Shown here piece after piece: positions 2,980-23,395 of a DNA stretch of 23,943 nt. Under the pieces are notes generated by a model, which had not been told where the DNA came from, made no database searches, and worked only from the letters and a program-made list of their open reading frames with translations. Made by a program: the position numbers and the translations under genes. Origin of the DNA: a virus; the IMG/VR virus record IMGVR_UViG_3300027851_000591, positions 1 to 23,943 of that record. One strand, given 5' to 3'. The number at the start of each line of letters is the position of its first letter. The first letter of the stretch is position 1.

Positions 2980-3291
2980 TCACTTCAACCAAATATCCAA
3001 AATCAACTTTACAGCAAATCCGATTATTCCGCCGAGTGATAGAATAGCGGTTACAATCCACGCATTATATTTTGCTGATGTGTTCTTTGCTGAATCCGTA
3101 GCAATCTTCTCGTTCTCCAAACTCTTCACCCGTGGTTCAAGGTCTTTGAATGGCGTAAGGATAATCAACTGTTCGTGAATCTTGGTGAGCTTCTCGCTGA
3201 TGTCTTTGAATAGAATATCAAAACTATTCAATCGCTTTTCCACGTTGTCCATTCTGTATGCCATCAGTTGATTCTTTTCATCTTCGCTCAT
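2980..3291 (-). CDS. XhlA/holin-like single-pass membrane protein
   Basis: The 103-residue product has a charged helical N-terminal part (MSEDEKNQLMAYRMDNVEKR) with coiled-coil character. It ends in one hydrophobic segment of about 22 residues (WIVTAILSLGGIIGFAVKLI) near the C-terminus. This layout is that of XhlA-type hemolysin/holin accessory proteins, which act with a holin or endolysin in the cytoplasmic membrane during lysis. It is the last gene of the tail operon, where lysis genes are often placed, but no endolysin is seen. I chose the ATG at 3291; an upstream in-frame TTG at 3312 directly abuts the previous stop and would add 7 residues. TTGACA lies 15 bases before the ATG. The call rests on topology and position only. 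Confidence 0.55.
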   Translation of the reverse strand: MSEDEKNQLMAYRMDNVEKRLNSFDILFKDISEKLTKIHEQLIILTPFKDLEPRVKSLENEKIATDSAKNTSAKYNAWIVTAILSLGGIIGFAVKLILDIWLK

Positions 3292-3312
3292 GCGTTTACA
3301 TTCGCGTGTCAA

Positions 3313-3684
3313 TTATTCGCCCAACACTTCTTCAAATGTGAATGGTGGATAGGGTAAATTGAGTGAACCCTGTATTGATTCCGCTCGTATTGTTTGTGTC
3401 CATTGATAAACTGCTACCAATCGTCGATGATTTTGTAAATCATCTTTATGTGTCATCATTAGTTCCAAACAAGTGATCAATCTTGTTGGACCATATCCAA
3501 CGTCGATCATGAATTGTTCTGCCTTCTGGACAGATTTGGGAATGGGCTGATATTTGATCCCTTCATTGGATATGAACGGATACTGGGTTGGGTTCGGTTC
3601 TCCATCGGGAATTTCTATCAAATCTCCTCGTTGATGGTCCTTCAAATAATCCCCCGTTGGATTTGGTAAAAATAAATAGTTCAT
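3313..3684 (-). CDS. Unknown protein downstream of the tail fibre
   Basis: The 123-residue soluble protein starts MNYLFLPNPTGDYLKDHQRG. The ATG at 3684 overlaps the fibre stop codon as ATGA, which implies translational coupling; a start 5 codons further up would overlap the fibre more and looks less likely. Residues 55-110 are predicted helical (AEQFMIDVGYGPTRLITCLE). The position just after a fibre gene is where fibre chaperones or fibre-associated proteins are often found, but I see no motif that confirms it. Confidence 0.6.
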   Translation of the reverse strand: MNYLFLPNPTGDYLKDHQRGDLIEIPDGEPNPTQYPFISNEGIKYQPIPKSVQKAEQFMIDVGYGPTRLITCLELMMTHKDDLQNHRRLVAVYQWTQTIRAESIQGSLNLPYPPFTFEEVLGE

Positions 3685-5249
3685 GCCGGATTGCTCCATG
3701 TCGTAAGTCTGTAAGTTTGGCCTATAGATACCCCCGCTCTTCCTACAACGTCTCCCCGTACAACAACATCACCCACGAATCTTCCGATGTAGTTATTATT
3801 CAATACACGGTGGATACCAACAGCATAATGTTTGTTACCTTTATAGCTTAACTTTGTCTGAGAAAACTTTGCAGAAATAGCACCGCCAGAACCCAATAAA
3901 TACGTTGTTCCTGAACCACCAGCGTTCACCCAGTAATGGAAATTGCGTTGATAAAACACTTGGTTATAACATGCACCATTAACGTCCACTTCAATTTGAA
4001 CGTGGGGTGAATTACTTGTACTACCTGTCACTTGGTATCCTCCGATAAAGTATGCTTTTGCTCCATATCCTCCGTCATTTGCAATACCACCGGATACCTG
4101 TAATTGTTCATTGCTTGCAAGTTTGTACCAATAAACGGAAGCCCCTGTACCATATGTTGATTGCCAATTGAATGAACATGATGGGCCACCAATCGGTTGC
4201 GTACTTGTGTCGTTTGGAGCAACAAATGATCCTGAATCAACCACGTAGTAGAGTGCATCAGTAAGTAAAGCATTAGCAGTATCTACAGCAACAAGATCAC
4301 TTGCAACCCATCCTGTTGAAGCGGTGTGGTAAGTGAACATACAATCAGTTCCTTTTCCAGAATGCGGAATGACGTGCCGGTACGAAGCAACGGAATCCAA
4401 GAATATTCCTATAGCATTTCCGTCTAAGTGTTCGTACCAGTCAACGGATAGTTGGGATTCGACCACACTGGCAGTATTTGCGTAACTCGCCGTGTTGGAT
4501 GTATTAGAATGTTCCGCCTCATTTGCAAAACCAGCGTGTTCATCCCCCGACATCAAACCAGCAACGTTGTTTGCAATTGTCTCAAGTGTTCCGCCTGATG
4601 TGTATTCTTGGGCTGAATAAGCGTTCCCCGCATCGTTCGCAAAGTCTGCGTTAAGTGCGTGATCCGCCTCAAGAGCATGGTCAGCTTCTGGTGTGTGGTA
4701 TGCCTCTACTGCGAAGGCGACACTTCCCCCTGTGCCATCAAATAAAGATGCAAGTACGGTTGAATTATAAACTCCACCAACGTCTTGTGCCGTATCAGAA
4801 CTTTGTGCTGTGACTGCCGATGCAACATGCCCACCAGAACCATCAAATAACGTGGATAAATCCCCTGCGGGTATGTTCACATCAAGAACTGAAATGTACG
4901 ATGTCCCATCCGATAAACTGGCGAATCCATCAAATTCATTTGCGACATATGCTGTTGCAGCTTCCGTTGCAAAGTTTGCCGTGTTTGCTGATTCAGCCGT
5001 TGTAGCGGTGTATGCCGATGAAGCATAATCAGCCGTTGATGCCATGAATGCGTTGGTCGCGTTCGTTGCCGTGTCGCTGTATTCAGCGTGGCTAACCGAC
5101 ATTGAACTTGTCTGGCTGTTTCGTATGAATGAACCCGTATCAATTACTTGTGGGGTGAAATAGGATTGGTAGTTGCCAAATGATAGTTGGGTTCCAACCG
5201 TTACCGTTTGAACGTTCGGATTACTGGAAGATATGGTTAATGTTGGCAT
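3681..5249 (-). CDS. Tail fibre protein with Ala-rich stalk
   Basis: The 522-residue protein is the probable host-binding fibre. After a short N-terminal beta-rich part (1-50) come two long stretches of Ala/Ser/Thr/Asp repeats (about 50-105 and 185-265) with patterns such as TADYASSAYTATTAESA and ADHALEADHALNADFA. These are typical of trimeric fibre stalks. Between them a module is duplicated: LFDGSGGHVASAV (134-146) and LFDGTGGSVAFAV (169-181). The C-terminal half (about 265-522) is non-repetitive, rich in G, Y, W and S, and is the likely receptor-binding part. It lies between a BppU-like gene and a coupled small gene at the end of the tail module. Which receptor it binds cannot be read from the sequence. 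Confidence 0.8.
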   Translation of the reverse strand: MPTLTISSSNPNVQTVTVGTQLSFGNYQSYFTPQVIDTGSFIRNSQTSSMSVSHAEYSDTATNATNAFMASTADYASSAYTATTAESANTANFATEAATAYVANEFDGFASLSDGTSYISVLDVNIPAGDLSTLFDGSGGHVASAVTAQSSDTAQDVGGVYNSTVLASLFDGTGGSVAFAVEAYHTPEADHALEADHALNADFANDAGNAYSAQEYTSGGTLETIANNVAGLMSGDEHAGFANEAEHSNTSNTASYANTASVVESQLSVDWYEHLDGNAIGIFLDSVASYRHVIPHSGKGTDCMFTYHTASTGWVASDLVAVDTANALLTDALYYVVDSGSFVAPNDTSTQPIGGPSCSFNWQSTYGTGASVYWYKLASNEQLQVSGGIANDGGYGAKAYFIGGYQVTGSTSNSPHVQIEVDVNGACYNQVFYQRNFHYWVNAGGSGTTYLLGSGGAISAKFSQTKLSYKGNKHYAVGIHRVLNNNYIGRFVGDVVVRGDVVGRAGVSIGQTYRLTTWSNPA

Positions 5250-5250
5250 G

Positions 5251-5613
5251 TTATTCTATTCCCTGTGTGATGTCTTGAGCCAGTGTGAAGGTGTCAGCAA
5301 CATACGTTGTGATCTTTCCGCCTGAATCCTTCACTTGAATATCAAAGAAGTAATCCCCGGCCTTGATGTCCACTGTATCAGCGTGATCCAATTGTATTCC
5401 TGTGGAACCCTGAACTGCGTTACTGTGACTTGTGATAACCTTCTGTATCAGAGAATCAGAATCCGCATCCGTTTTCTTTCTCTTAACCGTGAAATAAATT
5501 GTGTAATCGGTAATATCCAAGGGTGTTCCATCATCATTTTTGAATGAAAGTAAGAAAATCTGGTCATCCCCTTTGTACATATCAATTTTGTTGTTGCCTG
5601 TGTAGTCGTTCAT
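5251..5613 (-). CDS. BppU-N-like immunoglobulin-fold tail/baseplate protein
   Basis: The 120-residue protein matches the style of the N-terminal domain of phage upper baseplate proteins: KGDDQIFLLSFKNDDGTPLDITDYTIYFTVKRKK, then IQLDHADTVDIKAGDYFFDIQVKDSGG. These domains form a beta sandwich used to attach fibres. Here the domain stands alone as a gene directly upstream of the fibre gene, so it probably links fibre to tail tip. I chose the ATG at 5613, preceded by AGGAA at a good distance; an in-frame TTG at 5634 would add 7 residues. A short tandem repeat, TGACAAT twice, lies between the previous stop and this gene. Confidence 0.65.
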   Translation of the reverse strand: MNDYTGNNKIDMYKGDDQIFLLSFKNDDGTPLDITDYTIYFTVKRKKTDADSDSLIQKVITSHSNAVQGSTGIQLDHADTVDIKAGDYFFDIQVKDSGGKITTYVADTFTLAQDITQGIE

Positions 5614-5637
5614 ATTCTTTGTTCCTATTGTCAATTG

Positions 5638-7293
5638 TCAGACAATGGTGATGGTTGGCCCACCCGTACACATGTGAAGGTTTGTTGGGTAACGGGTATC
5701 ATCAACTCTCACACGGTAAAACATATTATACGCTGGAGCATTGATGGTATCCCATGAACTGGATGCTGATGTCTTCCCCTTGGCAAAATATATCGGCACT
5801 TCAATACTGGAAGTTGCGACAAACATTCCCGTATCAGGGTTGGTACTCGTTATGATTGCGTAGAAATTTAGCGTCTGGTCTGTTGGGGAAGGGTTTGGCA
5901 ATTCCCCGACAACTTTCCATCTGCATTTCTGACTGACGTAATAATGTTCTGTTGGGTCTAAGTATGTTCCTGCATCAAAGAATTCCGTGTAGGAACTACC
6001 CGAGCCGAACGGAAATAATAGAACGGCATCAACGGCATCAACTAATTCAGCCGTTGTGAATTCATCACTAAGTTCTGTGGTTACGACTACATCAGAACCG
6101 CAGATGTTTGGTATATCCACAACCACCGTTTTAAGTGTGTTCGTCTGGGAACCACTGAGACGCCAAGGGAAATTGTAGTATCCAACATCATACGTTCCCC
6201 GTGTTGGGTATTCATAATGCCCATTGATCAATGCGGGTGGTTCTGTCCACTCATTGTTCCACCATTCAGGGATTACAAATTCATCATTTTCAAAACTGCC
6301 CGTTGCTGTCAGGTAGTATTGTTGTTGCCCAAGATAATCAGTATCCGCTTGGTAGTGCTTCCATCCGTTAAAGTCCGTAGCATAATAACTTTCCGTTACA
6401 CACTCGGGTATGTATCCAACCATTTCTTGTTTTCGATATACCGACTGAATACTTGCCGTGCTGGTGTATCCGTGCCACCCCTGTTTAGTCATGTGGTTTC
6501 CAACACGTTCCAATTGAATATAAGCACTTGCTGAACACTGTGGGCCGACAACCGTAACACTTCCCGTATCAGTTGAAGGGGAAGAGATTTCATAGAAGTA
6601 AGTTCCCAGACTTGAAGTTGTGTTAACCGTTGGTGTGATTTCTTCTTCTTTATCAACGTATGTTGCAGATGCCGTACCAACGATTGTTTGCTCTCGCCAC
6701 TTAACAAGTAAGGAACCATCACCCGAACACCATTCAGGATGGGTTATTTTCCATTTGTATTTTCCCTTCTGTGCGTTTGCGTGTCCATAGGTTCCCCATT
6801 CAATAGAAGTTCCCGAACTATCATCCCCACATGAATCTGATGTAACGTAAATTGAATCGGCAGGGGAAACGCCCGTATGTCCAGGTTCTCTTACGTCTTC
6901 CACTGTTGTTCCAACTGAACTTCCCCCTGATGAAGTGGAACCAGTACTAGGACTGAGTGCAGACAGTTTATTGTAGGCATCAGTTATCAACAGGGTCTTA
7001 GTGTAAAGACTGCTTGAAGTGTTTGTACGGTTTCCACTATTCCAAGTAAGGAATTCCCCCACACACGAAAAAGAAATGGAATCATCACTGTGATTTATTG
7101 CCGTTGTTCTACTGTCGCTCGGCGTTATGTTGTCCGTTTCAATCAGGGTTAAATGTGTTGGTGCTCCAGCAACTGGGGAATTAGCAACAGTCCACCATGA
7201 TTGATAAGATGTAACCTTACCCCCGATAGTTGTAGCACCAAACGAACAACAATCATTACAAGGCGGTCTACGATCTGAACCTGTGCAGCTCAT
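5638..7293 (-). CDS. Large secreted-type tail surface protein with N-terminal Cys cluster
   Basis: The 551-residue protein is not recognised. Its N-terminus has a tight cysteine cluster (C3, C12, C15, C16 in MSCTGSDRRPPCNDCCSFG). The rest is rich in S, T, G, Y and W, with several more Cys and many short beta-like stretches (GTYGHANAQKGKYKWKI; RVGNHMTKQGWHGYTSTAS), as in adhesive tail-tip or fibre proteins. The ATG at 7293 overlaps the upstream stop as ATGA; an upstream GTG at 7305 would add 4 residues. By position it corresponds to the distal tail or central fibre zone, but it shows no clear lambda J or Dit features. A structural role in host contact is inferred. Confidence 0.6.
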   Translation of the reverse strand: MSCTGSDRRPPCNDCCSFGATTIGGKVTSYQSWWTVANSPVAGAPTHLTLIETDNITPSDSRTTAINHSDDSISFSCVGEFLTWNSGNRTNTSSSLYTKTLLITDAYNKLSALSPSTGSTSSGGSSVGTTVEDVREPGHTGVSPADSIYVTSDSCGDDSSGTSIEWGTYGHANAQKGKYKWKITHPEWCSGDGSLLVKWREQTIVGTASATYVDKEEEITPTVNTTSSLGTYFYEISSPSTDTGSVTVVGPQCSASAYIQLERVGNHMTKQGWHGYTSTASIQSVYRKQEMVGYIPECVTESYYATDFNGWKHYQADTDYLGQQQYYLTATGSFENDEFVIPEWWNNEWTEPPALINGHYEYPTRGTYDVGYYNFPWRLSGSQTNTLKTVVVDIPNICGSDVVVTTELSDEFTTAELVDAVDAVLLFPFGSGSSYTEFFDAGTYLDPTEHYYVSQKCRWKVVGELPNPSPTDQTLNFYAIITSTNPDTGMFVATSSIEVPIYFAKGKTSASSSWDTINAPAYNMFYRVRVDDTRYPTNLHMCTGGPTITIV

Positions 7294-7862
7294 ACAGCAT
7301 TCCACGCAATAGCGTAGTAACTCCTATTACAGTCAACTGATGTAACGTGCCTGTAGAAATTTAAACTGTTCTGAATTGCGTTATACGTGGCAACGATTAC
7401 ATCATCCGTCACGTAAACATAACCGAGCAACTGTGCTACCACTGTTGGTTCAATACCTTCATTCGCACCTGATGGAAGAGACGAACCGTTATCAATGAAC
7501 AGGGAAGTGATAGTGGGATAACCACTGGTCCAACTTAAATTTGCCTGAACCCATACAGCATCCCCGTCACTTGCTGTAAACGTTGAATTGATATTGGATG
7601 GCAACTGGCTATTCACCACGCCCATTGAAACATTGAATGTATCGGTTCCCTTGATGGGAATTATCTTGAATGGATATGGTTCGGCAGGTGTTGGTTTAAC
7701 AACAGGGTGTATGATTTCCAGTGTTGTCCCTGAACCTATCTGTTTGATTCGATAGTCAGAAGATGGGCTTAAAGCAATACGTTGTACAAGGTCAACCAGT
7801 TGATTGTGTTTCGCTGGTGTTACCACCCTTCCATTTTCTTTTAGTGCTACAAAGTTGTTCAT
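7290..7862 (-). CDS. Unknown distal tail protein
   Basis: The 190-residue protein begins MNNFVALKENGRVVTPAKHNQLVDLVQRIAL, a helical N-terminus, followed by a beta-rich body (residues about 45-190) that resembles phage virion surface proteins. It starts with an ATGA overlap on the upstream stop and ends with an ATGA overlap on the next start, so it is made in step with both neighbours. It has no signal peptide, membrane segment or known motif. Function is inferred only from its place in the tail module. Confidence 0.6.
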   Translation of the reverse strand: MNNFVALKENGRVVTPAKHNQLVDLVQRIALSPSSDYRIKQIGSGTTLEIIHPVVKPTPAEPYPFKIIPIKGTDTFNVSMGVVNSQLPSNINSTFTASDGDAVWVQANLSWTSGYPTITSLFIDNGSSLPSGANEGIEPTVVAQLLGYVYVTDDVIVATYNAIQNSLNFYRHVTSVDCNRSYYAIAWNAV

Positions 7863-8566
7863 GTATAATACACATCAGTGTTCCAACCGATTGCGGAATA
7901 AGTGTAAGTCCGAACGATTGTCCACCAGTTCCCCTGTTTCTGTCGGATAGCAGCATCAATTTTCCATTTATCAGTTCCACTTGCCACTGATGGAACAGAC
8001 AATGTGCCTACTTCATCAGCGGGACTTGATGGGCGACTTGAGTAGTAAGTGGTTGTAATAATTTGTGTGGTTGGAACGTCCCAGTTTTTGATGTTGGCTT
8101 TTCCACTTGCATCCGTGAAATCAACAAATATGTCTGTTGGATTTTCCCTTGCTGAATTGTAGTGGGTTCCATCCGATTTTCTTTCCCACCAGACTTGCCC
8201 CAAACTATCCCAGTAAGAGAAGTCAGGGTGTCTCATGATTGGTTCTTGAATGATTGCCGATTGTTCCACGAACGAATTAGGTGGCATCGTTGGTGTGTTA
8301 ATCGTTGATGTGTTGTAGTTGATAACGGCTCGGCCGTTACCTGCGGTTAACGTTTCCAATTGGGCAGTTGCCAAACCGTAAACGCTACTACTGATGAACG
8401 TATCTACAGGAACACTTCCGTATGACATGGAAGCAACCGTGGATTCCAACACATTGAAATCCCCTTCAAGTGTTACAGTGTAAGTGCTGACACCATCTGC
8501 GGTTTTATTCCAATTCCGTTTTGTTCGTATTGAACCCGTTGCGTTTCCGTATGTAATCAATGGCAT
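7859..8566 (-). CDS. Unknown tail protein following the tape measure
   Basis: The 235-residue protein, starting MPLITYGNATGSIRTKRNWN, is beta-rich with aromatic patches (FSYWDSLGQVWWERKSDG). AAGGAAT lies a few bases before the ATG. It is the first gene after the tape measure (9-base gap). In siphoviruses this position holds the distal tail (Dit) or minor tail M-like protein at the tail tip. I cannot see Dit signature residues, so the assignment stays positional. Confidence 0.6.
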   Translation of the reverse strand: MPLITYGNATGSIRTKRNWNKTADGVSTYTVTLEGDFNVLESTVASMSYGSVPVDTFISSSVYGLATAQLETLTAGNGRAVINYNTSTINTPTMPPNSFVEQSAIIQEPIMRHPDFSYWDSLGQVWWERKSDGTHYNSARENPTDIFVDFTDASGKANIKNWDVPTTQIITTTYYSSRPSSPADEVGTLSVPSVASGTDKWKIDAAIRQKQGNWWTIVRTYTYSAIGWNTDVYYT

Positions 8567-8575
8567 ATAAATTCC

Positions 8576-10168
8576 TTAATCAAGTGTTCCACTTCCATCT
8601 GAACCGACTTGTGTTATTGCTTCTAACTTGTCGATAATCTTCTGGAGTTTGTCGTTACTCTTTTCCAATTCCTTCTTTGCAGCTTCTTCTTTAGTCACCT
8701 GTGAACTCTTGATGTTGTTGCTGTAGTCCACTCCGGCGACTCCACCCCCTGATTGTCTAAGGGAATCAACGGCTGGATTGAATGGAAGTGCTTTGGCTAA
8801 ATCCAAATTCTTTTCAGCACTCTTCACTTCGTCTTCAATTTTCTTTTTCTGTGTTTCCAAGTCCTTTTTCTTTTTGGCATCTTGGAACTTTTTAAATTCA
8901 TCGTATTGCTTTTTGTCGGCCTTGTTCTGTTCGTTCAACTTGTCTTCACTGGCTTTCTTTTCTGCTTCTTTTTCCTTGGCAATCTTTTCATCAATCGCTT
9001 TCAATTCCTTCACAAGTTGGATTGCTTTTTCTCTCGCCTGTTCTCGTTCCAGTTCTGTTTGTGCAACTGTTCCTTGTCTTCGTGCTTCTTCTATCTCACC
9101 AAGTTTGATTGCCCGTTGTGTATCAAGAGCCATTTGTTCCCGTTGTGCTTTTCTAACGGCATCATCATTCTTTGATTTCAAGTCTGCGAGTTTCTGAGCA
9201 TCAGTTAATTCTTGTTTTGTCTTGGGCGTTTCCGCTGTTCCGTCTGCGGTTGGATCACTGACTGGCTTACTGTCAGCCGTTGAACTGTTTGGTTCGCCAG
9301 TCACCAATGATTTAACGGAAGAAAATAGTGCTGCGAATTTAGAACCTGTTCCCCGGATGTTTTCAAGGAACGCACCCCATCGTTTTGTTGCTCCCAACAC
9401 ATCACCATTCAACAAATCTTTAACCATCAACAGGGACAATATGAATCCCTGTATTGGAATTGTGATAGCTTCAGCGAATGGAACGAAAGCGGTTACAAGG
9501 TATCCGCCCAACACCTTGGCAGTTGTCAGCATTCGATTCATGAAATCGTCTGCCTTCTTTAATTGATCTAATGTTTTTTCATCAAGGATTGGAGCACTTG
9601 CAAACATTCCTTTAACACCTTCTCCACCACTACGGAGCAACGGTAATAATTCTTTCGCACTCTTTCCAAGGATTGTTAACAAGGCATTGAAAGCTTTCCC
9701 CTTATCTTCTGCACCAGTAAATGCCTTTGCTAAGGCAACGGTTTGTTCCTCGGGCGATAACTTGATGTATTCCTCTGCGGATATACCTAAATCACTGAAT
9801 GCTTTGGATGCTGTATCACTTCCCTCTTTCGCTTCTTGGGCAGCTTTGTTTCCTTTAGCAAGGGCCGATGCGAGTACTTCAACTGTCGTTCCACTTTGTT
9901 CGGCAGCATACTTCAACCTTTGAATTGATTCCCCCGTGGTGTCGAACTGGTCGGCAATATCCCCGATACGGGCAAACTCTGATATGGTTGTGCGAACGAA
10001 CGCAACAACTGCACCCACTGCAAAAGCATTCGTGATGCTTGATTGCAAACTGCCAAACTGTTTCTTGAAATGTTCTGTAACGGAAGATGCAACATTCTGC
10101 ACCTTTGCCATGCCCGTATTAAATTCAGATATGTCTGCCGTTACTTTCGCTTTGATGTCGTTACTCAT
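8576..10168 (-). CDS. Tail tape measure protein
   Basis: The tape measure protein spans the tail tube and sets its length. The 530-residue product is short for the family (lambda gpH is about 850), implying a shorter tail. The N-terminal part (DIKAKVTADISEFNTGMAKV) is the usual entry to these proteins. Next comes a helical region with ADQFDTTGESIQRLKYAAEQ, then hydrophobic segments at about 225-255, and a long K/E/A/Q-rich coiled coil (about 315-450). An ATG at 10168 is preferred over a TTG two codons upstream. TTGACA lies 15 bases before the ATG inside the end of the preceding gene. Recognition rests on length, helical content and place after the tail tube. Confidence 0.85.
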   Translation of the reverse strand: MSNDIKAKVTADISEFNTGMAKVQNVASSVTEHFKKQFGSLQSSITNAFAVGAVVAFVRTTISEFARIGDIADQFDTTGESIQRLKYAAEQSGTTVEVLASALAKGNKAAQEAKEGSDTASKAFSDLGISAEEYIKLSPEEQTVALAKAFTGAEDKGKAFNALLTILGKSAKELLPLLRSGGEGVKGMFASAPILDEKTLDQLKKADDFMNRMLTTAKVLGGYLVTAFVPFAEAITIPIQGFILSLLMVKDLLNGDVLGATKRWGAFLENIRGTGSKFAALFSSVKSLVTGEPNSSTADSKPVSDPTADGTAETPKTKQELTDAQKLADLKSKNDDAVRKAQREQMALDTQRAIKLGEIEEARRQGTVAQTELEREQAREKAIQLVKELKAIDEKIAKEKEAEKKASEDKLNEQNKADKKQYDEFKKFQDAKKKKDLETQKKKIEDEVKSAEKNLDLAKALPFNPAVDSLRQSGGGVAGVDYSNNIKSSQVTKEEAAKKELEKSNDKLQKIIDKLEAITQVGSDGSGTLD

Positions 10169-10177
10169 TAACAACCA

Positions 10178-10819
10178 TCAGACTGTCAAATCCAATTCCA
10201 TCTGAATCTCTGCCAATACCCTTTCATCAGCGGAACTAACCACGTTGCATTTACCTGTTTTGACGTATGCCAGGGTTTCCGATAACCAAAGCATTTCCCC
10301 TATCGTAAGGTTCTCCACTTCGTCTTTAGCCATGCCACCTTCAAACATCAGGTATCCCATACGACTAAGGGACCACGGAAGGGAACCCACTGGCCCCGAC
10401 TTCTCCACTTCCCCCAGTTCCATTTTCATTTTCTCTTCTGGTGTTAACTGGGACTTAACATCAAACACTTTCGGGCCTGAACAATAGTCATTCAGATACT
10501 CGGCAAACAGTTTCACTTGTTCGGGTATATCTTTCCTCTGTCTGTTTTTATAAACCCACCAGTTCCCCTGTAATCGTTGGAACCAAGAATATTTCTTAAG
10601 GTTCAGTTCATGAATTGGTTCATCCCGAGTGGTTGAACAAATACGGATTGCGTTTTCCAAGTCTTCAAGTTTCGCCTGTGTCGGGTTGTATATGAGTGGT
10701 GAACTGATTACATGTAACCGCAAGTAACGTTTCAACGTCAGCGGTTGCATTCGCTTCCCTAAAATCTGGTAATCAAAATGTATAAACGAATCAATGTAAC
10801 TGTTCTGTAGTTCTTCCAT
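10178..10819 (-). CDS. Protein at the tail assembly chaperone position
   Basis: The 213-residue protein, rich in K, E, Y and W, is not recognised by motif. It lies between the tail tube and tape measure genes, where lambda has G and GT, the chaperones that load the tape measure. Unlike lambda there is only one reading frame here: the tape measure begins 9 bases after its stop, leaving no room for a frameshift partner. The gene comes directly after the tail tube terminator and lacks a clear Shine-Dalgarno sequence; ATGACA lies 14 bases before the ATG. A chaperone role is a positional inference. Confidence 0.5.
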   Translation of the reverse strand: MEELQNSYIDSFIHFDYQILGKRMQPLTLKRYLRLHVISSPLIYNPTQAKLEDLENAIRICSTTRDEPIHELNLKKYSWFQRLQGNWWVYKNRQRKDIPEQVKLFAEYLNDYCSGPKVFDVKSQLTPEEKMKMELGEVEKSGPVGSLPWSLSRMGYLMFEGGMAKDEVENLTIGEMLWLSETLAYVKTGKCNVVSSADERVLAEIQMELDLTV

Positions 10820-10845
10820 GAATTTACTAACCGTGTCATACGCAC

Positions 10846-10876
10846 AAAAAAGGGACTGCGGTTAAGCAGTCCCTTT
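10846..10876 (-). terminator. Intrinsic terminator after the tail tube gene
   Basis: Read on the minus strand, AAAGGGACTGC pairs with GCAGTCCCTTT around a 6-base loop, ending in a run of T. It is a perfect 11-bp stem. It lies inside the late region and would make many transcripts end right after the tail tube gene, raising its output over the downstream tail genes. Confidence 0.88.
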
Positions 10877-10890
10877 AGTGGAGTTATGAA

Positions 10891-11229
10891 TCAGGACAAG
10901 GAAATGTATTCTGATGTGATACCGTCAACGGTATATTTCGTGAAGTTGTTGAACGTTCCGTTTTCTGCGACTTGTGTGCAGATATAAGTTGTTCCATCGT
11001 AAGTAAACGTTTGTGTTGCTTCTACGTTGGAACCAGAAGTTTTGAAGAACTCCACAGTTATACCTGTTTCAATATCATCGTAACGTCTTGTGCAAATCGA
11101 ACCTGTTTCATTGGCGATTGTTGCGACTACGTTTGGTTTATAAGTTCTGTTGTACGACTGTACTTTTTTACCCAACCAAATCGGGGCACCAAAAGCTGAT
11201 CCTGTAATTCCGTATGTTATTTGTGACAT
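10891..11229 (-). CDS. Probable major tail tube protein
   Basis: The 112-residue protein (MSQITYGITGSAFGAPIWLG) is beta-rich, with TFTYDGTTYICTQVAENGTF near the C-terminus. It is smaller than lambda gpV but in the same place: after the tail terminator and before the chaperone-position gene and tape measure. Expression signals fit an abundant protein. It has a good AAAGGAA binding site, a 7-bp hairpin upstream in its own 68-base leader (11245-11264), TTGACA at 11271-11276 and a strong terminator after it. Identification is by position and these signals; I see no sequence motif that proves it. Confidence 0.65.
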   Translation of the reverse strand: MSQITYGITGSAFGAPIWLGKKVQSYNRTYKPNVVATIANETGSICTRRYDDIETGITVEFFKTSGSNVEATQTFTYDGTTYICTQVAENGTFNNFTKYTVDGITSEYISLS

Positions 11230-11244
11230 AAATTGATTTTTCCT

Positions 11245-11264
11245 TTACTGCTTGTTGGCAGTAA
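11245..11264 (-). repeat. Hairpin in the leader of the tail tube gene
   Basis: TTACTGC and GCAGTAA pair over a 6-base loop just upstream of the AAAGGAA ribosome binding site. TTGACA lies 6 bases further upstream. It may stabilise the 5' end of the tail tube mRNA or act as an operator. Confidence 0.45.
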
Positions 11265-11297
11265 TGGTGTTGTCAACTTATGGCTGGTTAACGGTTA

Positions 11298-11750
11298 TCA
11301 GGTTCCGAACTGAATGGATGGATTAAACCCTTGTTGTGCCATCACAGTTACATTAAGTAACGATGTCCAAAGTTTATTGTTCTGTTCTGTTCCAACGTCT
11401 TTAACTTCCGTGTTGTATATGAACAAGCTTCCACTAACCCCGTTACAGTATGAACGAACGGCGAGAGTATCCCCCATCTTGTCTGTAACTTCATTCAACA
11501 GATATGTGTTGTCGGATAAACTTCCTGATATTTCAACCTGAGTTAATACCATCACGTTAATATCCATTTCAAACACCCCATCCAATGGCGGTTGATTAAC
11601 GGAACGAACCACGTTCACACTTACAACTGGATATTCAATATCTTCATCATTCGTACATGGAACAAAGTTGTGTTCTTTGTGATTGGTGATGCTGCTACTA
11701 AGATAGTTTGTTAATTCTCTTTCTGTGATTTGTGCAATTCCGTATTTCAT
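11298..11750 (-). CDS. Probable tail terminator protein (gpU-like position)
   Basis: The 150-residue protein has a helical N-terminal part (MKYGIAQITERELTNYLSSS) and a beta-rich remainder ending in TSLLNVTVMAQQGFNP. This size and layout fit tail terminators such as lambda gpU, which cap the tube and join it to the head. It follows the Z/gp10-like gene by 2 bases and precedes the tail tube gene, exactly the lambda Z-U-V order. No decisive motif is visible, so the call rests on gene order and size. Confidence 0.55.
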   Translation of the reverse strand: MKYGIAQITERELTNYLSSSITNHKEHNFVPCTNDEDIEYPVVSVNVVRSVNQPPLDGVFEMDINVMVLTQVEISGSLSDNTYLLNEVTDKMGDTLAVRSYCNGVSGSLFIYNTEVKDVGTEQNNKLWTSLLNVTVMAQQGFNPSIQFGT

Positions 11751-11752
11751 AT

Positions 11753-12496
11753 TCAGTTCTTCCCGTAAAATTCTCTTTGTCCCTTGTTCAATACGTTCTT
11801 GTGTATCGATTTGATAATGTCGTTTTCACGACCTACCAAAGCCCGACTTAAAATGCTGTTGTTCTTATCCACTGTTCCAGCGTATGCGACTGCACTACCA
11901 ACCGTGATAGATGGACTGTTCAGGTTCTTAATATCATCCACAAAGATTTCCTGTGTGTTGTGTTTGGTTATCCATGCAGCCGGCTTTCCACCCAGTTTTG
12001 CGTATGCGGCACCCAGTGAACCCTTCAGTTTACCAACCTGTTCTTGCAATTTCTTTCTGTATGCAATCATTGGTTCCTTACTCTTCAACATGATCTTGGT
12101 TCCATTGGTAATCACTCGGCCCCGTTCGTTCCGTTTGATGTCTTCTTTGTTGAATTCCTTTGCTTCAAGTCGAGCAAGTATCCCCGTGTCTTTGATTATT
12201 TCTTGCAGGGCCGTTTCGTTCCCTTCTCTGAAATATTTTCTTACTCTCTTTTGCAATCCCGCATCCCGACTGGTGAACTTCCGTGCAAGGTAATCGGGTT
12301 CAACGAACAACTTGTTTAAATCATCCGTGATTGCGTCAGCCCCTTGTTTACGTGTGGATGGTGGAGTAAAATCCATCATCCGTTTCAACAACAACTTGGC
12401 TTGATCTTTGATAACAAGTCGTATGTCTACATTGAAGTTTGCCGCATACCGTTGTATGGCCTGACTGAAACGTGTTGTATCAACTTGAATGTTCAT
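11753..12496 (-). CDS. HK97 gp10/lambda Z-like neck or tail completion protein
   Basis: The 247-residue basic protein begins with MNIQVDTTRFSQAIQRYAAN and a helix with KDQAKLLLKRMMDFTPPSTRKQGADA, a pattern typical of the gp10/gpZ family that completes the tail-head junction. The C-terminal part has SITVGSAVAYAGTVDKN, also usual in that family (the region near the interface with the neighbour subunit). It starts with ATGA overlap on the FII-like gene. It is somewhat longer than many gp10 proteins; the middle (about 60-150) is charged and helical. Confidence 0.6.
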   Translation of the reverse strand: MNIQVDTTRFSQAIQRYAANFNVDIRLVIKDQAKLLLKRMMDFTPPSTRKQGADAITDDLNKLFVEPDYLARKFTSRDAGLQKRVRKYFREGNETALQEIIKDTGILARLEAKEFNKEDIKRNERGRVITNGTKIMLKSKEPMIAYRKKLQEQVGKLKGSLGAAYAKLGGKPAAWITKHNTQEIFVDDIKNLNSPSITVGSAVAYAGTVDKNNSILSRALVGRENDIIKSIHKNVLNKGQREFYGKN

Positions 12497-12810
12497 TTGT
12501 TGGTGTCGGATATTTCAATCGTGTAACTGTTGTTGTCTTCCGAGTAATCAACAATCCAGTAAGTCTTTCCCTTCAATACGATTTCTTTTCCACGTACCGT
12601 CTTCTTATTAGCAATCGTAAGAACGTTCTTACGCACAAGCAGAGTGGTAACGAATCGTTCCAAGAAACCTCCATCAGCAAGTTCCTCTGTAACCTTCACT
12701 GTATTTGTTACACCCTTATATGTCTTCCCGTTGAAAGTGAATGAATCGCCAATCATTGATTCTGCGTTCTTCATTCCTATTTGTATTGCGTCGTTGAAAA
12801 TGTTTCCCAT
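12493..12810 (-). CDS. FII-like head-tail joining protein
   Basis: The 105-residue protein has the pattern of the lambda FII / head-tail attachment family: an N-terminal helix (NIFNDAIQIGMKNAESMIGD) followed by a small beta domain (SFTFNGKTYKGVTN; KGKTYWIVDYSEDNNSY). It follows the major capsid gene and is coupled to the gp10/Z-like gene, in lambda order. It is the first gene after the capsid terminator and has no evident Shine-Dalgarno sequence; TTGACA lies 16 bases before its ATG. Role: binding the portal vertex so that tails can attach. Confidence 0.6.
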   Translation of the reverse strand: MGNIFNDAIQIGMKNAESMIGDSFTFNGKTYKGVTNTVKVTEELADGGFLERFVTTLLVRKNVLTIANKKTVRGKEIVLKGKTYWIVDYSEDNNSYTIEISDTNK

Positions 12811-12839
12811 ATATCAATCTTGGTTCTGTCAAAGGACAT

Positions 12840-12870
12840 AAAAAAAGAGCGTGTCCTAAAGGACACGCCC
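12840..12870 (-). terminator. Intrinsic terminator after the major capsid gene
   Basis: On the minus strand GGGCGTGTCC (one G-T pair) pairs with GGACACGCTC over a TTTA loop, followed by TTTTTTT. It is a textbook strong terminator within the late region, 34 bases after the capsid stop. It would limit read-through into the connector and tail genes. Confidence 0.92.
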
Positions 12871-12903
12871 TAATTTTATAAGCAGTTGTTTGTTTGTCGT
12901 TTA

Positions 12904-13776
12904 TTAGACGATACGTTGAACGGCTCCGTTAACACCCTTTGCAACACCGTAGATCACGGACATTTCAAAGTATTGTTTACGTGTAGCAAGGTCCACCCAT
13001 GCGATGAAGTGAGCAGGAAGTCCTGTCTTTTCAGACACAACAACACCTTCTTCAATCACGCCTGGAGCACCAATCAATTTTGGCGAACGAGCTGCGATTA
13101 ACAAACCGTTACGATGAAGAGCAACACCCTTCGTATTAGCAGCAATGTAATTGCTGTTGATCGAAGCGATTTCAAATCCACCAAGAACAGGAAGTTTTCC
13201 AGTCTTAACAGTGTTCACTTCCGAGTTGTAGAACTGTGCGGTGTTTTGCACCTTTTCGTCCTGTAACAAGGCGTTGTAGTGGCCGTCAACAAGTACAAGT
13301 GTACGAGGAGCCGTACCAACTTCTCTACTATCCAATGCGGCTTTAAGGGCCAAAAGGTTGTTGAGAGACATAGAGGCTTCTGCGATTGAAGACGAATGAG
13401 AGAAGTTTGTGGACGTAAGCAATCCAAACAAATCCTTGGAAATGTCTTTTGCTAATGCGTCTGCAAGTTTGGTTGCAATCGGGTCCATCCAGTTAACAAC
13501 ATTGCTGTTCACTTGGTTGGAATCAATTGCTTCTCTCACACCACGGTATTTGTCCAACGTCACTGTGTAATCGTTGCCGGATGCGTCTGTAGTTGTGAAC
13601 CCAGTTGTTGGGCTATACAACGATGTGGATGGATTATCCAGATCATGAATTGTTACCGAACCAGAAACCCCAGCTTCTACATTCGAGAAGTTACGGGCAA
13701 ATGTTTCAAGGTAAGGTACGTTTGCTTCGACAGTGTTGATAATCTCCTGTCCTAGATTTTTGAAACTAAGTTCCAT
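12904..13776 (-). CDS. Major capsid protein (HK97 fold)
   Basis: The 290-residue protein is the probable main shell subunit. The N-terminal helix (MELSFKNLGQEIINTVEANV) precedes a long beta-containing middle with TTGFTTTDASGNDYTVTLDKYRG. A helical spine follows (WMDPIATKLADALAKDISKD), then a C-terminal A-domain-like section (LPVLGGFEIASINSNYIAAN; GVALHRNGLLIAARSPKLIG) common in HK97-fold coats. Its place after protease and scaffold, an AAAGGAAAA binding site embedded in the scaffold stop, and a strong terminator directly after it all fit the most abundant late protein. No lambda D-like decoration gene precedes it. Its independent scaffold gene means it has no built-in delta domain. Confidence 0.85.
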   Translation of the reverse strand: MELSFKNLGQEIINTVEANVPYLETFARNFSNVEAGVSGSVTIHDLDNPSTSLYSPTTGFTTTDASGNDYTVTLDKYRGVREAIDSNQVNSNVVNWMDPIATKLADALAKDISKDLFGLLTSTNFSHSSSIAEASMSLNNLLALKAALDSREVGTAPRTLVLVDGHYNALLQDEKVQNTAQFYNSEVNTVKTGKLPVLGGFEIASINSNYIAANTKGVALHRNGLLIAARSPKLIGAPGVIEEGVVVSEKTGLPAHFIAWVDLATRKQYFEMSVIYGVAKGVNGAVQRIV

Positions 13777-13779
13777 ATA

Positions 13780-14214
13780 TTATTTTCCTTTGGTTAAAGA
13801 CTTTATTTTTTTGTAAAGTTGAGCGGATTTGTGCGGGTCTTTCTCCGCTTTAAATTGCTCTTGGAGAGTTGCGATATTTTCAACCGACAAAATCTCCTTA
13901 ACTGAAATTGGTTCTACTCCAATTTCTGCGACAATCTCCGCTGCCATTTCGGTTGCGGTTTGCTTGGTTGTTTCCAACGTTGCGACTGTTTCAGATAGTG
14001 TTTCGTTTGTGGCAACGACATCAGTAATCTTCGTTTCCAATTCTTTTTCTTTCGCTTCTTTGTCGGCAACCAATCCTTTAAGACCTGAAATTTCTTCCAA
14101 GTGTGTTTCAAGGGTTGTCTTCAATTCCGCGTTTTCTGTTTTCAAAGAATCGTTTTCGGCGGTTAAGCTGGTGACGGTTTCTTTGAGTTGTGAAATCTCT
14201 TTAAGTAAATCCAT
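13780..14214 (-). CDS. Coiled-coil scaffold protein
   Basis: The 144-residue acidic protein is almost wholly helical with clear heptads (ISQLKETVTSLTAENDSLK; AELKTTLETHLEEISGLKG) and a basic C-terminus ending in KSAQLYKKIKSLTKGK. These features and its place between protease and capsid identify a capsid assembly scaffold, which is normally removed by the protease. In lambda the scaffold Nu3 is nested in the protease gene; here it is separate. I chose the ATG at 14214, which follows AAGGAAAG; an upstream ATG at 14256 would add 14 residues but has no binding site. TTGACA directly follows the protease stop (14275-14280). Confidence 0.75.
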   Translation of the reverse strand: MDLLKEISQLKETVTSLTAENDSLKTENAELKTTLETHLEEISGLKGLVADKEAKEKELETKITDVVATNETLSETVATLETTKQTATEMAAEIVAEIGVEPISVKEILSVENIATLQEQFKAEKDPHKSAQLYKKIKSLTKGK

Positions 14215-14276
14215 GTTCTTTCCTTCTTTTTTAAAAATGTTTAACAAGTTGTTCATTTATAGTGTTGCGTTTGGTG

Positions 14277-15116
14277 TCAACTATTCAGGTACGCCACCAA
14301 TGATTCCAAGTCGTTGATGACTCCATCTATCAAACCTGCGGTTAAAGCTTCGTCTGAATCAAACATCTGGCCTTGCATTGATTCATCCCCAACAGTTCTT
14401 TTTGCCAGTACGTAGGATTTGAATTCTGCGAAGCATTTATCAACGCCGTCTTGAATCAACTTCCGTTGATTGTCTGTGAGACTCTTTCCAGCAATACCCA
14501 TTGATTTGAATTCGCCACTGTCGAACACTTCCACTTTGTAACCTTCCTGTTCGTAGTGTTTGGAACTATCCACGTATGCGACACGCACACCAATTGAACC
14601 CACTTCTGCGGATTTACTGATGAAGATTCTTGAACACTGGGAAGCAAGGTAATAACCGGCACTTGCAATCATTCCGTTACTATAGGCAATAACGTTCTTT
14701 GTCTTTGCCACTTCTGCAATCAGGTCGGCAGTCTCGGGGACTTGTGTAACCACTCCACCGGGAGTATCAAAATCAATGATGATATTTTTTACCAAGTCGT
14801 TAGTTGCCAACTCTTTTAAGTTCTTCTGAAACAATTCTAAGGAGAACGCACCACACATCATTTCAAGCATTCCAGCTTTTGGCAGAATGGTTCCTTCCAC
14901 GTTGATAATTGCCGTGTTCCCTATGATGTCGTAATACTTTATTTCCTGTTCTGGTTCTGTGGATTCATCAGGCATCATGTCTGCTATATCCATCGTTCCT
15001 TTTAAATGTGCATCAAGTAATCCACGTATGGCTTGATACTTCGCGGGAAGGATTAACCACTTGGTTTCATCATTCACGATTGCGACTATCCGACTTAAAT
15101 CTTTTTTGTGTTTCAT
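14277..15116 (-). CDS. S49-family prohead protease (lambda C-like)
   Basis: The 279-residue protein is a ClpP-fold serine protease that cleaves scaffold and capsid proteins in the prohead. The S49/SppA core runs from about residue 68 (TAIINVEGTILPKAGM) through IIIDFDTPGGVV (112-123), the nucleophile in GMIASAGYYLAS (Ser152) and the general base in GEFKSMG (Lys204). The N-terminal 60 residues are a phage-specific extension. Its ATG overlaps the portal stop by one base (TAATG), so it is translationally coupled to portal as in many lambda-type modules. Its catalytic dyad is intact. Confidence 0.88.
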   Translation of the reverse strand: MKHKKDLSRIVAIVNDETKWLILPAKYQAIRGLLDAHLKGTMDIADMMPDESTEPEQEIKYYDIIGNTAIINVEGTILPKAGMLEMMCGAFSLELFQKNLKELATNDLVKNIIIDFDTPGGVVTQVPETADLIAEVAKTKNVIAYSNGMIASAGYYLASQCSRIFISKSAEVGSIGVRVAYVDSSKHYEQEGYKVEVFDSGEFKSMGIAGKSLTDNQRKLIQDGVDKCFAEFKSYVLAKRTVGDESMQGQMFDSDEALTAGLIDGVINDLESLVAYLNS

Positions 15117-16747
15117 TATTGTTGTGTTGGTTGATTGTTTGTTGAATCAGGAGTTAACGTGATTGGTTTACGTACTGGCGTATCAGTCCAATCTTGTTCC
15201 ACTTCCACCGTTGGTTTTGGCAATCCAAGTTTTTCTCTGATTGCTTTTTCGTCTTCAAGGTTTGGTGTTAATGCACCCGCTCTTACAGCCACGCCGTATG
15301 TATCTGCGAACGTTCTCGCGTTATCCGTTTCTTTCTTTTGTACTTCACCATCAGTTAATCCAAGTGATGCAAGTAATTCCTTCTCGGCTTTGATTTGTTT
15401 AAATTCTGTTTTGTAATCCTTACCCTTGGAACTGTAATAAGATTCATACGACAACAAATTATTCTGAATCAATTTGATTGCTGCTTCCGTGTCGTAACCT
15501 TTATCAATTCCGATTTGTTCTGGCAGAGTGTAAGTTGCCAAATACATCTTGGAACCAATGTCGGAAACTTTTAAATCTCCATCAACAACACCCCCGGCAA
15601 TTACCCATCCGTAAATTCTACGGAGCATGGAATCAATCAATGTGTTCTGAATGATGACACGAAAGAATGCGTTGGTTGAACCAAGGACAACACGGTTACC
15701 TGTTCCGTTTAACTTCTCGGGGGTAACAATGAATTCGTAAGACAAACCAACTGATTGGCAAACTTGTCGTGCAAGTTCTTCAAGAAATCCTGTGAATGCC
15801 TGTGATGGTCTATTGCTTGTTGTAAGTTCTATTTTTTCATCTGTGTTCAGATATGCAATGTTTGCACCCAGAATTCTTTCCAATTGTGTGTTACGTTTTG
15901 CAGGTTGATTATCCGATTTTAAATTAGCTGTTGGTGTTCCTCTTCCCCATGTTCCATCCCCGGCATTTCCTGAACGTTTGGTTACAGTAGCAGCAAGGGA
16001 ACTGTGAACCTTAAGTGCGGATTTCTCTAACTTAAGAATGTCTTTGTAATCTCTCGCTGTATTAAGTGCCGATGTGAAAGCGGATATACCCCGTAATTGA
16101 TTCGGGCCTTTCGTTGTTCTCTTAACGTGAATTACATTTTCAGCACTTACACGTTGGTATGTGTCACCAGTCCAAACGTTGTAAGCAATTGGTTTCCCAT
16201 TATCATCAATGTATATTCCATCAATGGATTCATCGTTTGGTTCCCCTGTTCCTCTTACTGCATCCGTACTAATAAACTGAACTTGTCTGTATCCTGTTGA
16301 TGCTTTCGTGAGTAACAAAAAGAATTCACCATCACGAATAAGAAGACGCGCACCAAGTGCCTGTAATTGATAAAGGGTGTGATCTTGATTGACCGTGCAA
16401 AACTTATTGTTTGCCCATGATTCAAAGTAATCTGTTGCGTTGATGTTAAATTGTTCATCAGGGGAAACGGCTTGGATGCTGATTCCACTACCAACCCCGT
16501 GAACTTCAATCTGTGTAAGAATGTTTTCAATCAGGGGAAAGTTTGTTTCAAGGTATCGGGCAAGTCTGACTATCTCTTGTCTTGTGTATTCCGATGGTGT
16601 TTCCATTTCTTCAATTGAAGTGTGTGGAATATAAGAACGGTCATTGGTTTGTTGTGCGGCTTCAAATGCCTGGCCACTGGAGAACTTTCGTTTTGCTCTG
16701 TATTCCCTCATGTATGCGGCCCGTGATTTAGGTTGTTTTGCTGACAT
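15116..16747 (-). CDS. Portal protein (lambda B family)
   Basis: The 543-residue protein forms the dodecameric ring at one head vertex through which DNA passes. Family features are visible in order: a basic N-terminal tail (MSAKQPKSRAAYMREYRAK), the stretch with REIVRLARYLETNFPLIENI-like helices, RDGEFFLLLTKASTGYRQVQ, IYIDDNGKPIAYNVWTGD, VIHVKRTTKGPNQLRGISAF, and AGGVVDGDLK towards the end. The sequence agrees with the lambda-type portal family and its length is usual. It lies between gpW-like and protease genes. AGGAA sits before the ATG at slightly long spacing. Confidence 0.9.
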   Translation of the reverse strand: MSAKQPKSRAAYMREYRAKRKFSSGQAFEAAQQTNDRSYIPHTSIEEMETPSEYTRQEIVRLARYLETNFPLIENILTQIEVHGVGSGISIQAVSPDEQFNINATDYFESWANNKFCTVNQDHTLYQLQALGARLLIRDGEFFLLLTKASTGYRQVQFISTDAVRGTGEPNDESIDGIYIDDNGKPIAYNVWTGDTYQRVSAENVIHVKRTTKGPNQLRGISAFTSALNTARDYKDILKLEKSALKVHSSLAATVTKRSGNAGDGTWGRGTPTANLKSDNQPAKRNTQLERILGANIAYLNTDEKIELTTSNRPSQAFTGFLEELARQVCQSVGLSYEFIVTPEKLNGTGNRVVLGSTNAFFRVIIQNTLIDSMLRRIYGWVIAGGVVDGDLKVSDIGSKMYLATYTLPEQIGIDKGYDTEAAIKLIQNNLLSYESYYSSKGKDYKTEFKQIKAEKELLASLGLTDGEVQKKETDNARTFADTYGVAVRAGALTPNLEDEKAIREKLGLPKPTVEVEQDWTDTPVRKPITLTPDSTNNQPTQQ

Positions 16748-16750
16748 AAT

Positions 16751-17041
16751 TTAAATTCCTATGTTGGTAAAATCGGGCGTGGAATTCGTAATGAATCCCC
16801 CGTTAAGGTATGAAGTGAGAGCAAGAGTTGTTTCTGCAAACAACTGTTCGTTCGTCTTTGTTCCGAACGTGTAGGCTTTTCCGTTTTCAGAAACGGAAAC
16901 TAAATGTTTTCCACTACCGTTCTTAATCGCGTCTTTGGCGATTGTTCTTAGTTCCTCTATGTAATCGGAACTTCCATCTAAAAATGCATCATCAACAAGT
17001 GCTTTAACAAAATCGGTATCAATCATGAGCGTATTGCTCAT
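16751..17041 (-). CDS. gpW-like head completion protein
   Basis: The 96-residue product occupies the position of lambda W, between large terminase and portal, and has the gpW-like pattern: helices around a short beta hairpin (GKHLVSVSENGKAYTFGT) followed by a long helix (TNEQLFAETTLALTSYLNG). gpW-type proteins close the portal and form the tail-binding site. The ATG at 17041 is chosen over a TTG three codons upstream. The start is unusual: ATGAGC-GTATT-type hairpin pairing (17025-17041) includes the ATG, TTGACA abuts it, and another palindrome lies just before. No Shine-Dalgarno sequence is visible. Confidence 0.65.
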   Translation of the reverse strand: MSNTLMIDTDFVKALVDDAFLDGSSDYIEELRTIAKDAIKNGSGKHLVSVSENGKAYTFGTKTNEQLFAETTLALTSYLNGGFITNSTPDFTNIGI

Positions 17042-17068
17042 GTCAACCAATGTGTAACACTGTTACAC
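17025..17068 (-). promoter_or_regulatory. Twin inverted repeats around the gpW-like start codon
   Basis: The first repeat, GTGTAAC and GTTACAC with a 3-base centre (17052-17068), directly follows the terminase stop. The second, ATGAGC and GCTCAT over a 5-base loop (17025-17041), contains the start codon of the gpW-like gene. TTGACA (17041-17046) lies between them. This could be a translational switch, an operator flanking a promoter element, or an mRNA processing site. Confidence 0.45.
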
Positions 17069-21411: not shown

Positions 21412-21732
21412 TTATTTTAATAACCTTCTTAACCTTCCCAGTTCACTTATAAACCGTGTGAACATGTCCAACCTGTTTTCCCATACCATTTGCTTTTTGA
21501 ATTCTTCCCATGAACAAATCGCCTGATGGGTCGTAATTTTGCTTTTTGTACCTGATACACAATAGCAACGCACACACTCGCCTTGTTCTGTTTGATAAAT
21601 GATCGTAGTGAATTTATTACAGGCTGATTGTACTTCTTTGTGTAGGCAATTAGGCGGGAAGTATGGTTCCACTGTCTGCATTAGTTCATCATCTACTAAA
21701 GATGTTCCGAATATTCTGTTGATTTCTGTCAT
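21412..21732 (-). CDS. Unknown small protein
   Basis: The 106-residue protein (MTEINRIFGTSLVDDELMQT) has five cysteines (NCLHKEVQSACNKF; GECVRCYCVSG; ICSWEEFKKQ), with CVRCYC suggesting possible metal binding, though the spacing is not a classic finger. The C-terminus is helical and basic (RFISELGRLRRLLK). It is joined to the upstream gene by ATGA overlap. Function is not recognisable. Confidence 0.6.
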   Translation of the reverse strand: MTEINRIFGTSLVDDELMQTVEPYFPPNCLHKEVQSACNKFTTIIYQTEQGECVRCYCVSGTKSKITTHQAICSWEEFKKQMVWENRLDMFTRFISELGRLRRLLK

Positions 21733-22265
21733 TTTGTTTTTCCTTTTTTCTTTTTGATCTTTGGTTCCTCTTCAATCTTTCTATTTCTTTTATTTCCATC
21801 ACGATAAGTTGATGATGTATCAGTAGATTTGCACATTCTGGGGTGTCTTAGTCCCAGTTCTTTCACGATGTCTGAAACACGTTCTGAAAATGCTTCACGG
21901 GTGATTGCATATGACTTGGCTATTTCTGCGTGTGATACGTTCCCCCTGAAGGGCAAGTTAAGTGCTGCTACCAACGCATCCACTTCAAGACGGGGATTTT
22001 TACTAAACAATATCCGACTGATGATAACCGTTAACACTTGGGCCGTTCGCCGTTCACTATCCACCCGTATCAATTCGTTGATGATCAATTGCGGTTCCTC
22101 TGCATCCAGCAACATTCCTTTAAGGGTGTCGGTTTGATGTAGAAGTGTTTCCCAGTCAAAGCCACAGGGTAAATCAATGTCGTATCCCCCGTTTTCATTC
22201 TGCGTAAAGATGGGCCGTATTGAATCGGGTTCCTGTCTGTCTGATTTAATTCCTGTGATTGTCAT
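21729..22265 (-). CDS. Helix-turn-helix protein with sigma region 4-like motif
   Basis: The 178-residue protein has a mainly helical body (residues 40-105; LINELIRVDSERRTAQ-type helix) and a clear helix-turn-helix at about 110-139: VSHAEIAKSYAITREAFSER followed by VSDIVKELGLR. This is close in form to sigma region 4 and LuxR-type motifs. The last 30 residues are very basic (GNKRNRKIEEEPKIKKKKGK). It overlaps both neighbours as ATGA. It is the best candidate in the window for a phage transcription regulator. A sigma-2-like region binding -10 is not evident, so it is not a full sigma factor. Confidence 0.6.
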   Translation of the reverse strand: MTITGIKSDRQEPDSIRPIFTQNENGGYDIDLPCGFDWETLLHQTDTLKGMLLDAEEPQLIINELIRVDSERRTAQVLTVIISRILFSKNPRLEVDALVAALNLPFRGNVSHAEIAKSYAITREAFSERVSDIVKELGLRHPRMCKSTDTSSTYRDGNKRNRKIEEEPKIKKKKGKTK

Positions 22266-23242: not shown

Positions 23243-23395
23243 TCATCCCCATAAATAAACTTCCCGTTGTCCTGCGTGTCTGTGATTCCAATTGTAGAAA
23301 TACGGGTGCCATTCAGGGTCTTGAAATAATCTCTGTTTGGGTTTGTAGTTCTTGTATGCATCCACTCTGATTTTAATACGTTCCGTTAAACTCAT
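23243..23395 (-). CDS. Short 50-residue gene coupled to the HNH gene
   Basis: The frame encodes MSLTERIKIRVDAYKNYKPK, then QRLFQDPEWHPYFYNWNHRH and a tail ending YLWG. Its ATG overlaps the HNH stop codon as ATGA, the same coupling used by many neighbours, and it fills the gap between the HNH gene and the gene starting at 23222. Composition is basic and aromatic. Function unknown. The frame is short, so chance is not excluded, but its fit to the operon is good. Confidence 0.55.
   Translation of the reverse strand: MSLTERIKIRVDAYKNYKPKQRLFQDPEWHPYFYNWNHRHAGQREVYLWG

Follow-up and report, generated by a model that had tools for sequence, protein, structure and literature searches.

In bacteriophage T4, late promoters consist of one short element, TATAAATA, which lies near the transcription start, occurs in many copies before late genes, and requires a phage factor, gp55, that reads it together with the host RNA polymerase. 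Stoperators of the mycobacteriophage L5 type occupy short gaps between genes, in correlation with the direction of transcription (PMC9283540; PMC6550527), and the late promoters of phage AR9 produce leaders of 26–491 nt (PMC5312081). Our literature searches for promoters of Verrucomicrobia (Verrucomicrobiota) or Akkermansia prophages, and for leaderless late promoters with TTGACA, returned nothing.

The TTGACA hexamers of the prophage studied here resemble T4 late promoters in that a single element precedes many late genes. A candidate phage factor is suggested by its co-occurrence with the hexamer and by a switch between TTGACA and TTGACT. Unlike T4 late promoters, these sites do not carry TATAAATA, and they end 12–18 bp before the start codon, where a leader would be nearly absent, with no Shine–Dalgarno sequence. 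The candidate counterpart of gp55 would be P178, a helix-turn-helix (HTH) protein whose copy in the window has no Pfam match. With the stoperators of L5 and other Cluster A phages, the hexamers share asymmetry, a single orientation, a location at gene junctions, and a phage-encoded DNA-binding protein (here a candidate) with co-varying specificity. They differ from stoperators in standing at a fixed spacing from the start codon, in replacing the Shine–Dalgarno sequence, and in what is conserved, which is [G/T]TTGACA plus a weak spacer composition as opposed to the 13-bp L5 core. Like sigma-70 promoters, they present a −35-like hexamer, but no A/T block is conserved at −10 distance in 150 collected sites, and a start codon 12–18 nt after the hexamer is not compatible with a position near −35. 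The element is short and phage-specific, like those of AR9 late promoters and other phage-polymerase promoters, although no gene for a large polymerase subunit was noticed in the window phage.

TTGACA Is Confined to Gene Junctions in a Verrucomicrobiota Prophage

The window (the whole stretch of DNA analyzed, 23,943 nt) is a complete IMG/VR record that begins with host DNA and continues into a prophage whose genes are read on the minus strand; open reading frames (ORFs) were called mechanically, and the prophage ends are not defined. Positions 1–2226 carry infC, rpmI, rplT, and pheS (identified by reading) and are host DNA adjoining the prophage. This host part is of Verrucomicrobiota type, with the closest pheS at 64% and the best pheS relatives in Verrucomicrobiota metagenome-assembled genomes. 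A second contig, G001 (28,268 nt), overlaps the window, is identical to it over 16.9 kb, and extends the phage 8 kb upstream. Searches for close relatives among viral contigs with terminase, capsid, and portal queries each returned only the identical contig, and a terminase alignment contained no stretch conserved enough to serve as a search query.

A scripted count found seven copies of TTGACA on the minus strand and none on the plus strand, at exactly the coordinates given in the original prediction (Table 1). All seven read in the phage sense direction and sit at gene junctions, the predicted distance of 15–16 nt to the ATG is right for the copies at 12827, 10184, 5629, and 3307, and none lies deep inside a gene, the single coding copy being at the very end of its own. 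It is also true, as predicted, that no good −10 stands at the right distance from the window hexamers. Contig G001 contributes two further forward copies, each 14 nt from the start it precedes, one belonging to an endolysin-like gene and the other to a lipoprotein gene, so that the nine hexamer-to-start distances are 14, 14, 14, 15, 15, 15, 16, 18, and 44 nt. In the phage contig extended with G001, 7/9 copies fall 12–17 nt before an ORF start (P = 4.6e-10).

Table 1. Positions of TTGACA copies and associated features in the window
Feature	Position	Strand	Context
TTGACA	17041..17046	-	14 nt before second in-frame ATG of gene 16751-17041; last A shared with first ATG
TTGACA	14275..14280	-	Overlaps stop of S49 protease gene; 18 nt before scaffold-like gene
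TTGACA	12827..12832	-	16 nt before the gene following the major capsid gene; directly 3′ of terminator hairpin
Intrinsic terminator	12846..12871	-	11-bp stem with T tail; separates major capsid gene from TTGACA
TTGACA	11271..11276	-	44 nt before gene 10891-11229; sole late site with a long gap
TTGACA	10184..10189	-	Within the final codons of gene 10178-10819; tape measure gene starts 15 nt downstream
TTGACA	5629..5634	-	15 nt before gene 5251-5613; TGACA copy 7 nt upstream
TTGACA	3307..3312	-	15 nt before holin-like gene 2980-3291
P178, helix-turn-helix protein	21729..22265	-	Family co-occurs with motif; candidate reader of the element
P203, conserved neighbor of P178	20778..21389	-	Same co-occurrence; second candidate factor

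The signal is one of position, not of abundance, since the window as a whole holds fewer copies than dinucleotide shuffles do (7 vs. 26.3); an excess of the hexamer was rejected as the signal, since shuffling makes it more frequent. Synonymous codon shuffles made gene by gene predict about 10 sense and about 5 antisense copies in phage coding sequence, compared with 1 and 0 observed, while four copies lie entirely within the 768 noncoding bases and another two straddle the edge of a gene (14275 and 17041). TTGACA/TGTCAA is among the most depleted coding hexamer pairs, behind the palindromes GATATC and TTCGAA and A6. The confinement of TTGACA to junctions is confirmed, far beyond chance. A possible degenerate copy of the element, TGACA within ATGACA, is found at 10834–10838, 14 nt before the ATG of gene 10178–10819, and tandem partial copies adjoin two sites (window 5629–5640, TGACAATTGACA; L012 1729–1741, TTGACTTTTGACA).

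The Element Recurs in Distant Verrucomicrobiota Prophages

Verrucomicrobiota genomes carry distant prophages whose terminases are about 24–32% identical to that of the window phage. Approximately 20 of these bear the observation out, showing a strong TTGACA strand bias and starts clustered 13–17 nt after the hexamer. The collected set comprises 150 sites at which [G/T]TTGACA stands 12–18 nt (mostly 13–16 nt) before an ATG (122 sites) or GTG (28 sites), with distances of 12 nt (2 sites), 13 nt (59), 14 nt (42), 15 nt (18), 16 nt (19), 17 nt (6), and 18 nt (4). Nothing is conserved further upstream than the G/T at −1. The spacer is C-rich and then G-rich, and a G at spacer position 12 is fixed relative to the hexamer at every start distance (0.52–0.75), which indicates that this G belongs to the element; its share falls to 0.36 in a second, partly AT-rich set. 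In three AT-rich phages (G469a, G469b, and G603) the spacer ends T-rich, often with TAT or TGT before the ATG, unlike the C-rich, GG-bearing spacers of GC-rich phages. Spacers are slightly more folded than shuffled sequence (t = −3.4), and a hairpin as a conserved feature was rejected because no covariation was found.

No peak in TTGACA-to-start spacing appears in 400 kb of host DNA on both strands, other prophages show no such spacing, and the motif is likewise absent from cultured phages of Roseobacter, Rhodobacter, and Faecalibacterium whose terminases are related. One further prophage, G294, had seemed motif-bearing from loose start counts and was rejected, being negative with proper ORFs and without P178.

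Strand Avoidance and Upstream Terminators Point to a DNA Element

Inside the late genes of motif-bearing prophages, antisense copies of TTGACA are strongly avoided (4 vs. 28.3 expected, P = 1.5e-8). Sense copies inside late genes of motif-bearing relatives are neutral (34 vs. 37 expected), and in prophages that lack the motif antisense copies are not avoided (24 vs. 16.5 expected). Because an antisense copy does not appear as UUGACA in late mRNA, its avoidance argues for an element of DNA rather than RNA and points to one whose wrong-way copies do harm, as those of a promoter would. Of the 161 TTGACA sites, 12 directly follow a terminator-like hairpin and its T tract, compared with 7/633 other starts (P = 4.5e-5). 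Among the 12 are the site at 12827 in the window and the one at 6795 of the overlapping contig, whose T tract extends into the hexamer. This enrichment was not repeated in the second set (1/45 vs. 2/106). Where a terminator is directly upstream and the start codon follows within 12–18 nt, the gene can be read only if transcription starts anew at the element.

Genes led by TTGACA also tend to lack a ribosome-binding site. A Shine–Dalgarno sequence of at least 4 nt was found at 7/103 TTGACA-led starts vs. 307/732 other ORFs, a count that allows any of three starts for the latter, and an AGGAGG-like site 5–10 nt before the start is correspondingly rare in TTGACA-led genes (7/103). In the window, most early genes have a Shine–Dalgarno sequence, which is mostly absent from TTGACA-led genes; the TTGACA-led gene 5251–5613 has a weak one, and gene 10891–11229, 44 nt from its hexamer, has AAAGGAA.

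One reading of this pattern is that UUGACA, 12–18 nt before the start codon, is a translation signal that a phage factor or ribosomal RNA recognizes in place of the Shine–Dalgarno sequence. The tight hexamer-to-start spacing, the contrast in Shine–Dalgarno content between TTGACA-led and early genes of the window, and the weak hairpin tendency of the spacer would all suit it. The original prediction had listed a translation or processing signal among its options, and in its purely translational form we now consider this unlikely, given that antisense copies, which are not UUGACA in late mRNA, are avoided sevenfold, that directly upstream terminators at some sites leave no mRNA without a new start, and that one window site is 44 nt away from a gene with its own Shine–Dalgarno sequence.

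A Phage-Encoded Protein Co-occurs with the Element

An all-against-all comparison identified two neighboring protein families, P178 and P203, in motif-bearing prophages and initially in no others. Diverged P178 and P203 are present in the upstream parts of two motif-lacking prophages, G420a and G420c, which use TTGACT at the same spacing (15/25 sense copies before starts, P = 3e-15). Prophages G420b and G420d, in the same host genome, use TTGACA. Specificity is therefore carried by the phage, and TTGACA/TTGACT constitutes a switch of specificity by one base that occurs naturally in a single host.

A blind test drew on new prophages chosen by P178 alone, covering seven long regions. TTGACA was the top start-linked hexamer in 5/7 (G529, G491, G469a, G469b, and G603; P from 1e-6 to 4e-15), and its signal was weak in G518 and G572. 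In G144a and G144b the TTGACA signal has P < 1e-4. Exceptions occur on both sides: G402 has the motif with P178 not detected, G082 and G421 have no more than a marginal P178, and G222b has a diverged P178 and no motif. The P178-bearing regions G222:C76 (L210–L211), G518, and G572, all without clear TTGACA, may rely on a different element, as is the case for G420a and G420c.

P178 is a generic HTH protein. The window protein has no Pfam or PHROG match, its relatives give weak HTH, MarR, and Sigma70_r4 matches, and its best match in the PDB is a KorA-type HTH (E = 0.0045). An AlphaFold model of P178 from one sequence reached a pLDDT of 39 and was not used, and neither P178 nor P203 had a match among 50,697 phage records. 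P178 is the best candidate for the reader of the element.

Asymmetric junction sites in one orientation that co-vary with a phage HTH protein could also be a stoperator-like roadblock, at which a phage repressor bound to one-way sites halts RNA polymerase in the lysogen, as in mycobacteriophage L5. We regard this as improbable: a roadblock would not be expected to keep a constant distance from the start codon or to go with a missing Shine–Dalgarno sequence, antisense sites would do no harm, and conservation extends over 6–7 bp only, compared with a 13-bp core. The proposal that the hexamers are ordinary −35 boxes of host-type sigma-70 promoters fares worse and is very improbable. The hexamer does match the −35 consensus, as the original prediction had pointed out, but no −10 lies 16–18 nt from these hexamers, the arrangement is absent from host chromosomal genes, and TTGACT users reside in the same host. 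RNA from a −35 box here would start inside the gene, and with a start codon merely 12–18 nt away TTGACA cannot be one. Coincidence, which the original prediction had also listed, or a by-product of codon bias and restriction-site avoidance, might be suggested by the mere seven copies in the window and by the many palindromic hexamers that the phage also avoids, but its probability is negligible, since TTGACA is not palindromic, is placed and not merely avoided, and recurs in the blind set and in approximately 20 further, distant prophages, which rule chance out.

A Proposed One-Element Late Promoter

The best explanation, and in our judgment probably the correct one, is a conserved, phage-encoded, one-element late promoter that yields nearly leaderless mRNAs. 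TTGACA would form the core of this phage-specific promoter and [G/T]TTGACA its one visible element, with the start codon 12–18 bp (mostly 13–16 bp) downstream. A phage-encoded DNA-binding factor, for which P178 is the best candidate, would direct RNA polymerase to the element, and RNA would begin between the hexamer and the start codon. As these are 12–18 nt apart, the start site should lie within that stretch and the leader should be no longer. Late genes would then be read as nearly leaderless mRNAs with no need for a Shine–Dalgarno sequence. The original prediction had also raised the option that a phage activator uses the hexamers as −35-like elements. A DNA element with a phage-encoded factor is supported by the antisense avoidance, by the upstream terminators at some sites, and by the TTGACA/TTGACT switch in one host, while the notion that it acts as a −35 box fails.

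Several features weigh against a promoter. A hexamer plus G/T holds little information, there is no consistent −10, spacer composition differs between phages (C-rich in GC-rich ones, T-rich near the ATG in AT-rich ones), and the association of P178 with the motif is imperfect (G402, G082, G421, G222b, G518, and G572). In a more specific version of the promoter model, P178 would be a sigma-like or promoter-recognition factor of a new kind, possibly acting together with P203. It would bring the host polymerase to a single hexamer approximately 15 bp upstream of the start site, so that many late genes have nearly leaderless mRNAs, and its specificity would change by one base between phage lineages. 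This would be an undescribed system, and we advance it only tentatively.

TTGACA is most likely a phage-specific switch that starts mRNA almost at the first codon and is read by an undescribed phage protein. If true, many prophages of this phylum, whose phages have hardly been studied, share one regulatory code, and late gene starts become predictable from sequence with a candidate factor named. To have promoters take the place of ribosome-binding sites, one gene at a time, would be an unusual phage late program.

Other Features of the Locus

Coding sequence in window positions 2226–23943 lacks the palindromic hexamers GATATC, TTCGAA, AGATCT, and CAGCTG and also avoids AAAAAA. The absence of palindromes is as expected from restriction avoidance, which was rejected as a source of the TTGACA pattern because it accounts for the avoided palindromes and not for placement at starts. 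Genes resembling those for homing endonucleases are found at 20041–20781 and 23392–23919 in the window and at 1310–1732 in L012, as judged from NUMOD3-like repeats (by eye), a weak HNH_4 match, and the GIY-YIG SegE family. Near the host junction, on the opposite strand and outside the late gene block, lies a lysine-rich ORF of 100 amino acids (2620–2922, plus strand).
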